Source: a virus
Direction: 5' to 3' (one strand)
IMG/VR virus record: IMGVR_UViG_3300021185_001461
Location: 1 to 64,000 of that record
Length of the DNA: 64,000 bases
Shown: positions 59,611-61,359 of the stretch, one piece after another
How positions within the stretch are numbered: the stretch's first letter is position 1
Layout of the letters: every line of letters begins with the position of its first letter
Position numbers and translations under genes: made by a program
The notes under the pieces: model-generated
Databases searched by the model: none
What the model was told of the DNA's origin: nothing
Seen by the model: only the letters and a program-made list of their open reading frames with translations

Positions 59611-59634
59611 GAAAAAGACGCTCTAAAGCGCCTT
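59611..59634 (-). terminator. Intrinsic terminator of the structured RNA unit
   Basis: Stem AAGGCGCT/AGCGTCTT (one G-U pair), four-base loop, then TTTTTC on the minus strand. It ends the transcript predicted to start near 59856. Confidence 0.8.
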
Positions 59635-59856
59635 TTAAAAAATAAGCAAAATAGGTAGGACTCGGTTATACCTACAAGCACGTACACAGAATACCATTCT
59701 ATCACGCACAACCTAGTTCCGCTCGGTAGAGCAATGTGATCCTTAGTCTCTCAACCTCGAACCTGGGTACCACCCCTAACTAGTCAAGTTCGACCCTTCT
59801 GGTAAAGGCCTCTTCCTTGCACTATAAACAAAAGTTAATTATTCTCTTGTTGCTAT
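59611..59856 (-). ncRNA. Candidate structured non-coding RNA (about 245 nt)
   Basis: Flanked by a sigma70-type promoter and an intrinsic terminator and containing no convincing reading frame. Its minus-strand sequence is locally G/C-richer than the surroundings and has many complementary arms: CTAGTT/AACTAG closing a 71-nt unit (59713-59718 with 59778-59783), which encloses hairpins GGGT-GGT-ACCC (59765-59775) and GCTC-TACC-GAGC (59721-59732); then AGAAT-GGT-ATTCT (59688-59700) and GTAGG/CCTAC (59655-59659 with 59671-59675); and AAGG/CCTT (59805-59818) near the 5' end. The tRNA-sized unit lacks a proper T-arm and CCA, so it is not a standard tRNA. Function unknown; T4 also makes stable RNAs (C and D) besides tRNAs. 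Confidence 0.6.
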
Positions 59857-59862
59857 GTACTT

Positions 59863-59891
59863 AATATACAACGTTTTTGCATAAAGGTCAA
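59863..59891 (-). promoter_or_regulatory. Sigma70-type promoter of the structured RNA
   Basis: Minus strand: -35 TTGACC (59886-59891), 17-base spacer, -10 TATATT (59863-59868). It lies just after the 50-aa basic gene. Confidence 0.7.
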
Positions 59892-60195: not shown

Positions 60196-61359
60196 TTACT
60201 GGAATGACAAGTTACCTGAGTTAACATCAATTTTAGATAGGTAATCAGCTGCGTTACCAAGAGATGAAGCTTGGTTGTTTAGCTCAACATAACCATAACG
60301 TGTCATAAATGATACTGTTGGTTCGAATGTTGCCGGATCTAATACTGTGCCTGAGCTCATTAGTGGGATGTATGGGCAGTAAAATGCTGCTGCATCAATC
60401 TCACCGTCGCCTTTATAGCCAACTAGTACTGGAGCATTATCTGCCGCGTACTGGTCAACAAAAACACGCATAGTGCCGTTCAAAGTACCAACAAATTTAG
60501 TGTTAGTTGGAGCTTCGAATGGTCCTTCAGTTGTTCTTGCGAACGCTGAAGTTGTTGCACTTTGTAGTACAGTTAACATTGTTGGTGAAATAACAACGTA
60601 GTTACCTGCGCCTCTACGTGTACGTGCTGCGATTAAGTTAGCTGATCTGTTAATAAGAACTGCCAACGCCGCATGCTGGTCTCCAACAAACGTTGCTGTA
60701 CCAGAAACGTTACCCTGGTCATATGTGTCTGTTGCCGTACCCGCTAATGTGCGAAGTGAAGTTAAAACTTCTTGATCAATCTCAGCAGTAATTTCTTGTG
60801 CAAGTGCTTGCATAATTTCTGCTTCAACGTCTAGACCGTGCATTGAATTAGCATCTTGTGCCGCTTCAAAAGTCCAACGTGCTGATAATTTACGTGTTTT
60901 CGCTTCAACAGTTTGTTTCAATACTTGGATTGAAAGCTTCTTACCAGCTTCTGCCTCTAGTGCTGAAGTTGAAGTTGCTGTACCGTTTGATGCGTCACCT
61001 GAGTAACCTTTTGCAATTGCGAAAGGTGATAGTGCTTCATCACCAGCTGTTACGCCAGCTGCTGTTTGGCCATATCTTACTCTTAATGTGTGAATTTGTC
61101 CTACTGGACCTGTCATAGGTTGTACACCTACTAGTTCGTTTGCGATAACTGTTGGCATCACACGACGAATAACTGGAAGAATCACTTTGTTAAGTGATGC
61201 TACGTTACCTGCCATAGTTGTGCCAGCATTAGCTGATTCTGAAAGGTAGCCCTTAGTGTTTTCTAGGACTGATTCCATTACAACCTTTTTGTTACCTTCT
61301 AAGCCATCTGTAAGGGCGTCTTTTGTAACGTCCCAATTTTCAAATAGATTCTGTGTCAT
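60196..61359 (-). CDS. 23: Major capsid protein gp23
   Basis: HK97-fold major capsid protein. Length (387 aa) and blocks such as VASLNKVILPVIRRVMPTVI, ANELVGVQPMTGPVGQIHTL and RTRRGAGNYVVISPTMLTVL match marine T4-like gp23. L39-S-E41 followed by SANAG fits the prohead-protease target (L/I-x-E), so cleavage after residue 41 is expected. It is followed by a strong terminator. No gene 24 (vertex) is present in the window, in line with marine relatives. Confidence 0.96.
   Translation of the reverse strand: MTQNLFENWDVTKDALTDGLEGNKKVVMESVLENTKGYLSESANAGTTMAGNVASLNKVILPVIRRVMPTVIANELVGVQPMTGPVGQIHTLRVRYGQTAAGVTAGDEALSPFAIAKGYSGDASNGTATSTSALEAEAGKKLSIQVLKQTVEAKTRKLSARWTFEAAQDANSMHGLDVEAEIMQALAQEITAEIDQEVLTSLRTLAGTATDTYDQGNVSGTATFVGDQHAALAVLINRSANLIAARTRRGAGNYVVISPTMLTVLQSATTSAFARTTEGPFEAPTNTKFVGTLNGTMRVFVDQYAADNAPVLVGYKGDGEIDAAAFYCPYIPLMSSGTVLDPATFEPTVSFMTRYGYVELNNQASSLGNAADYLSKIDVNSGNLSFQ

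Follow-up and report, generated by a model that had tools for sequence, protein, structure and literature searches.

Layout of an RNA unit downstream of gp23

The window analyzed here is a 64,000-nt section of a 121-kb IMG/VR virus record. On its minus strand, a promoter, a structured RNA and a terminator follow one another downstream of gp23, in agreement with a sequence-only reading that had proposed a dedicated phage RNA gene at this position. The features, listed in the orientation used throughout, are as follows.

61359-60196, minus: gp23, major head protein gene (PHROG 138), upstream of the unit
60134-60085, minus: glutamine riboswitch (RF01739, 52.5 bits), flanked by gp23 and the 50-aa basic ORF
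60062-59910, minus: 50-aa basic ORF, between the glutamine riboswitch and the promoter of the manA unit
59611-59891, minus: the phage RNA unit
59891-59863, minus: sigma70-type promoter; -35 TTGACC (59891-59886), 17-nt spacer, -10 TATATT (59868-59863)
near 59856, minus: predicted transcription start
59850-59645, minus: manA RNA (RF01745, entire model 1-192, divergent clade; Infernal against Rfam)
59850-59828, minus: 5' hairpin P1, at the transcript start (covariation)
59825-59822 with 59654-59651, minus: outer closing helix P2, around a multi-branched core (covariation)
59784-59711, minus: cloverleaf-like domain (71-nt unit); closing stem 59784-59778 with 59718-59711
59783-59778 and 59718-59713, minus: CTAGTT and AACTAG of the closing stem
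59771-59769 with 59727-59725, minus: loop-loop contact (D-loop with T-loop-like), GGU with ACC (matched triplets)
59675-59655, minus: 3' hairpin P9 (GTAGG...CCTAC), with the 3' strand of the closing helix immediately after it (covariation)
59634-59612, minus: intrinsic terminator core GGCGCTTTAGAGCGTC, then a U-rich tail, about 10 nt past the RNA domain
approximately 59585-59575, minus: late-promoter-like GATAAATA, past the terminator and ahead of the next gene (sequence)
59539-58940, minus: downstream 199-aa ORF with its own late-promoter-like site

Promoter and terminator calls are predictions throughout. The promoter of the unit matches the consensus at 10 of 12 positions. Its intrinsic terminator, AAAAGGCGCTTTAGAGCGTCTTTT followed by TCTTT (-10.8 kcal/mol by energy calculation), is present as previously described; it was absent from the list of the first signal scan and was identified by a later, energy-based one. 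The predicted 245-nt transcript folds with -72.7 kcal/mol (z = -2.7). No PHROG match was obtained for the 199-aa ORF at 59539-58940.

The nearest isolates of the window gp23 (60196-61359) are the jumbo T4-like phages Phosso, PA5oct and 121Q (64-70% identity); among isolates, it is not nearest to cyanophages. Glutamine riboswitches, known from Mosig and Melnitz (PMC9004378), were present in 7 of 12 scanned relatives and in tandem in L332. Freshwater-2 RNA (RF02980) lies near the manA unit in L185, L215, L257, L261, L291 and L300, about 70 nt past it in L215. Because freshwater-2 RNA adjoins the manA unit in relatives, the region past gp23 gathers several structured RNAs.

Family assignment and relatives

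Infernal aligned the element to the full model (1-192) of the manA RNA family, RF01745 (Weinberg et al. 2010, PMC2864571; Rfam 14 update, PMC7779021), at 59.8 bits against a gathering cut-off of 55.2 (E 9.7e-13 in the window). The window RNA is a member of this family; because RF01745 matches the whole element above cut-off, it is not the new RNA that had been proposed. As judged from sequence, it is part of a divergent manA clade. The window element and the RF01745 type share helix order and marine T4-like phage carriers, but the closing helix is AUAG/CUAU in the window clade and GGGAG/CUCCC in the RF01745 type, and the clade has AGUGCAAGGAAGAGGC where the type has AGUGACUGAAUAAAC. Furthermore, the window element is a free-standing unit, whereas manA has been filed as a 5' UTR element. 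Rfam assigns RF01745 the type 'Cis-reg', an annotation that lies outside the sequence definition of the family; in place of the corresponding 5' UTR arrangement, the window has a terminator just past the element and then a late-promoter-like site.

Many members of the window clade score under the Rfam cut-off, and most relatives of the window element are either under it or go undetected. Among 24 IMG/VR records, nearly all of the window clade, RF01745 placed six above cut-off (including G114, of group A) and found no match at all in four. A clade covariance model, R1, built from 15 clade members, gives those four about 200 bits and thus recovers members missed by Rfam. R1 scores the window element at 208.4 bits, the sole copy in the 121-kb record.

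Relatives were collected from viral contigs with three pattern scans, two on other parts of the RNA and one on both loops, plus a few other fetches. In total, 325 loci with a profile match yielded 204 distinct full-length sequences, which fall into groups A (cyanophage type, 89), B (window type, 104) and C (11); since relatives share ancestry, these and the following counts are of distinct sequences and not of independent evolutionary events. The element is carried by the isolates Mosig, S-CREM1, P-SSM2, P-SSM4, P-HM1 and S-SSM7. Mosig, a Pelagibacter phage (MT647606), is the closest isolate relative (73% over 225 nt) and was alone in matching the window region in blastn against phages; blastn of the S-CREM1 element returned nothing beyond itself. 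With RF01745 and R1, no match was found in T4, KVP40, HTVC008M, S-PM2, Syn9, S-RSM4, Syn19, S-SM2, S-B68, S-H34 or S-CREM2, in isolate searches run with stricter Infernal filters that weak members could escape. The jumbo T4-like phages closest in capsid protein likewise gave no R1 match and, in a run without a positive control, no RF01745 match.

In genome contigs (L386-L397), 7 of 12 pattern matches were not manA. Copies of manA occur in contigs binned as Prochlorococcus, Nonlabens, Euryarchaeota and others (L387, L388, L389, L391, L396); these are probably phage contigs inside those assemblies. The hypothetical proteins PHM1_121 of P-HM1 and PSSM4_169.1 of P-SSM4 overlap manA RNA and are probably not genes.

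Covariation, fold and comparison with tRNA

Covariation in the clade was assessed on 62 sequences with a home-made R-scape-like test, in which substitutions placed by Fitch reconstruction were re-dealt along the tree. Twelve pairs were significant (E<0.02), a level reached by no null alignment, and five of these belong to the CTAGTT/AACTAG stem. The closed 71-nt unit of the sequence-only reading therefore exists, as the cloverleaf-like domain of RF01745 closed by this stem, and the compensatory changes expected there are strong: in alignment A2, 6 of the 7 pairs of the closing stem show them and 99% of cells are paired. Within P1, pairs 59845-59833 and 59844-59834 covary (E<0.02) and five of seven pairs carry double changes. 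P2 covaries in the clade at 59825-59651, and the matching pair across all groups changes from GC to AT to TA. P9 covaries at 59674-59656, with 100% of cells paired. Over the whole of alignment A2, 89.6% of cells pair; the figure falls to 75.3% for shuffles and to 34-49% for slid versions. Double changes occur in 136 cells as opposed to 45.5 in shuffles, and 0 of 500 shuffles reached that count. Covariation is also strong across all 204 distinct relatives. No conserved reading frame was detected, no frame being open in more than 7 of 104 relatives. Neither outcome that the sequence-only reading had named as refuting it, a lack of covariation or a conserved frame, was observed. A chance structure or a cryptic coding region could be invoked since a promoter scan of the window by itself performs at chance level (16 found, 16.4 expected); however, the covariation already refutes this explanation, the conserved flanking signals described below and the lack of an open frame also count against it, and we regard its probability as negligible.

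Within the 71-nt unit, hairpin loop 1 base-pairs with hairpin loop 3, as established by a register-free triplet test in relatives. Of 177 sequences with GGU in loop 1, 167 have ACC as its partner, a class inflated by the third scan, which fixed GGU and ACC; the remainder mostly have the wobble partner ACU. The four other classes are free of this selection: AGU/ACU (13/13), UGU/ACA (11/11), UAU/AUA (2/2) and UGC/GCA (1/1). There are thus five matched types with few cross-matches. An initial global run for covariation yielded only 11 significant pairs, the contact not among them, and in a fixed register the contact shows a modest excess over shuffles (76% in the A2 count), partly because MAFFT shifts the loop by one base in one subgroup. 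The register-free test settles the contact. A 'pseudoknot?' with weak covariation, which may or may not correspond to it, had been drawn in manA in 2010 (Weinberg et al., PMC2864571).

By analogy, the contact resembles a tRNA elbow, with D-loop- and T-loop-like partners inside the 71-nt unit. A comparison of covariance models had independently noted that manA weakly resembles tRNA in its cloverleaf (PMC3692125). Like tRNA and the tRNA-like domain of tmRNA, manA has cloverleaf-like branching and a contact between the first and third hairpin loops; unlike them, it is without a CCA end and an anticodon, and its cloverleaf is internal and not formed from the termini of the RNA. Neither the length nor the sequence of the middle arm is constant, and this arm has no conserved anticodon-like loop. 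ARAGORN found no tRNA or tmRNA on either strand of the window, and an Rfam search of the window likewise gave no tmRNA; Mosig has a separate annotated tmRNA. The suggestion of a degenerate tRNA is at odds with these results, the covarying structure not being a tRNA acceptor/CCA arrangement. The D-arm-like string noticed on the plus strand, GGTAGAGC, is the complement of GCTCTACC in the third arm of the RNA and hence a coincidence of complementarity. A tRNA mimic survives only in a weaker form, as an elbow within a larger RNA. CCA-like 3' ends seen in L057 and S-SSM7 were discarded as inconsistent among relatives.

Some members abut tRNA genes. In S-CREM1 (OP535465), manA lies between tRNA-Leu and tRNA-Asn with gaps of 0-2 nt; in S-SSM7, manA ends at 151563 and tRNA-Gly starts at 151564; abutment was also seen in L017, L056 and L119. 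The S-CREM1 RNA (PMC9964418) belongs to the same family as the window RNA and has the same GGU/ACC loop contact, but it sits inside a tRNA array with no promoter seen, whereas the window RNA is promoter-led and the window is without tRNA by ARAGORN. The kissing loops, the reported cloverleaf similarity and the positions inside tRNA arrays would fit a decoy, whose elbow binds a host tRNA-cleaving defense or tRNA-processing enzyme and so shields phage translation. We consider such a decoy, a narrower version of the explanation preferred below, rather improbable, given an acceptor-like stem buried in a larger RNA, the missing CCA and conserved anticodon-like loop, and the negative ARAGORN result.

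A relationship to the T4 stable RNAs had also been raised. T4 rnaC and rnaD (139 and 119 nt), reported as late RNAs (PMC9697503), are like manA phage-encoded and structured, and they lie directly beside tRNA genes, as do some manA members. Homology is not supported, since neither RF01745 nor R1 matched T4 (AF158101) under strict filters that weak similarity could escape. The likeness is therefore one of analogy.

Flanking signals, neighboring genes and mode of action

A sigma70-type promoter, sought up to 55 nt upstream with its -10 ending 0-15 nt before the motif, abuts the element in 79/87 sequences of group A, 99/103 of group B and 8/10 of group C, against 3.5-5.6% in controls (3.5% for group B); overall, 186 of 200 relatives have one at the element start (control about 4%). 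The consensus-like promoter noted earlier is thus a conserved feature of the clade. Five of the eight misses in group A carry TTGACA with TATAAA. Two others, L057 and L153 (S-CREM1), come immediately after a tRNA; the last, L104, comes after a sequence that by eye resembles tRNA-Asn and that ARAGORN missed.

On the 3' side, the energy-based scan found a terminator in 71 of 97 clade B sequences (control 11/241, 5%), nearly all beginning 4-12 nt past the element. These 71 terminators comprise 50 distinct hairpin sequences, and 49 of the 71 sequences have a late promoter, NATAAATA, 20-140 nt downstream (control 12/579). In group A, terminators were found in 20/87 (control 18/221). In most group A members and in 26 of the 97 clade B sequences, no terminator was found and a gene follows closely; in many group A members, the downstream gene starts a median of 33 nt away. 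Mosig has the same promoter placement as the window but a rubrerythrin gene directly downstream and no terminator found, whereas the window has one. In P-HM1, a terminator-like hairpin lies right past the element and gp23 is just upstream, as in the window.

Two further arrangements were observed. In 33 of 87 group A sequences (for example L005, L009 and L095), the -35 TTGAC lies in the loop of a terminator whose T-run forms the promoter spacer; such a composite terminator-promoter would insulate the RNA from upstream transcription. A hairpin, GACCTAAGATGCAACTC...GGGCAGATGGTC, recurs downstream of manA in L009, L031, L035 and L061, has a T-run in some of them and precedes different genes; it is possibly another conserved element.

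Records of up to 252 kb hold at most one copy (in the incomplete contig G008, a single copy shows as two fragments). The neighboring genes are diverse: in group A those upstream form 46 clusters and those downstream 36, and in group B the figures are 22 and 25. They include gp32, transaldolase, rubrerythrin, Hsp20, peroxiredoxin, phosphomannomutase, a cytidylyltransferase/mannose-6-phosphate isomerase protein and virion proteins. Such genes are common cargo of such phages. They are also of the kinds behind the metabolic link of 2010, given as mannose and fructose metabolism, nucleotide synthesis, ibpA and photosynthesis (PMC2864571); that link may therefore be positional.

It was from adjacent genes that manA of marine cyanophages was filed, since 2010, as a candidate riboswitch (PMC2864571). 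In that scheme, an aptamer that senses a metabolite would control the next gene through the terminator or ribosome site located after the aptamer. Its complex, ligand-pocket-like fold, the filing in Rfam and the literature (PMC2864571; PMC9964418) and the many closely spaced group A genes without a terminator speak for this explanation, and cis-action may apply to the group A members and the 26 clade B sequences in which no terminator was found. However, the clade terminator hairpins vary freely while the RNA stays similar, which makes a shared antiterminator unlikely. In many cases the terminator is succeeded by a late promoter, the genes downstream share no relationship or are tRNA genes, and each genome has a single copy. 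A Shine-Dalgarno-like site was found at only 14 of 64 group A downstream starts, and the 3' CCUCCC strand is swapped for compensatory AU pairs in other groups. Overall, we consider a cis-regulatory element or riboswitch unlikely. Two specific versions were rejected: an attenuator with a terminator overlapping the aptamer, for the clade, because terminator sequences vary, and a general anti-Shine-Dalgarno role of CCUCCC, because of the few such sites in group A and the compensatory replacement of the strand.

Alternatively, the element could be a general 5' leader that stabilizes any transcript or aids read-through, the short RNA being a by-product where a terminator follows. Its position at transcript 5' ends before very different genes and tRNAs, with a hairpin right at the transcript start, is consistent with such a role. 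Yet a leader would be expected in several operons per genome and never exceeds one copy per record, most of the clade has nothing between element and terminator, and the S-CREM1 and L057 elements follow a tRNA rather than head a transcript. We regard this reading as very improbable.

Because the neighbors are diverse and no record has two copies, we read the element as an RNA gene. We think it probable that the window carries a stand-alone RNA gene from a T4-like phage, the product of which is a divergent manA-family RNA that is likely trans-acting. As the conserved signals suggest, host RNA polymerase carrying the principal sigma factor would initiate at the 5' boundary of the RNA domain and, at the terminator, release a transcript of about 245 nt. 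As the covariation shows, this RNA has a hairpin at its 5' end followed by a closed, multi-branched core, in which the D-loop/T-loop-like kissing contact holds the cloverleaf-like domain. It would most likely act in trans as a stable, protein-bound RNA. A target in tRNA or the translation machinery is a guess with a small chance of being right, prompted by the elbow and by relatives that lie in tRNA arrays.

More tentatively, and with more doubt than confidence, we hypothesize that the entire manA family is not a riboswitch class but an RNA specific to phages that acts in trans, has a tRNA-like elbow and occurs once per genome, being transcribed from a promoter of its own or excised from a tRNA precursor. 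In role, it might be the marine counterpart of T4 RNAs C and D, with host translation or tRNA metabolism as its target.

Hundreds of relatives suggest that the constants of manA are its own promoter and its fold, and not the genes behind it. If this is true, searches for a manA ligand have been aimed at the wrong place, and marine T4-like phages hold a widespread trans-acting RNA that is amenable to testing. The family may then bear on the old question of the role of phage stable RNAs.
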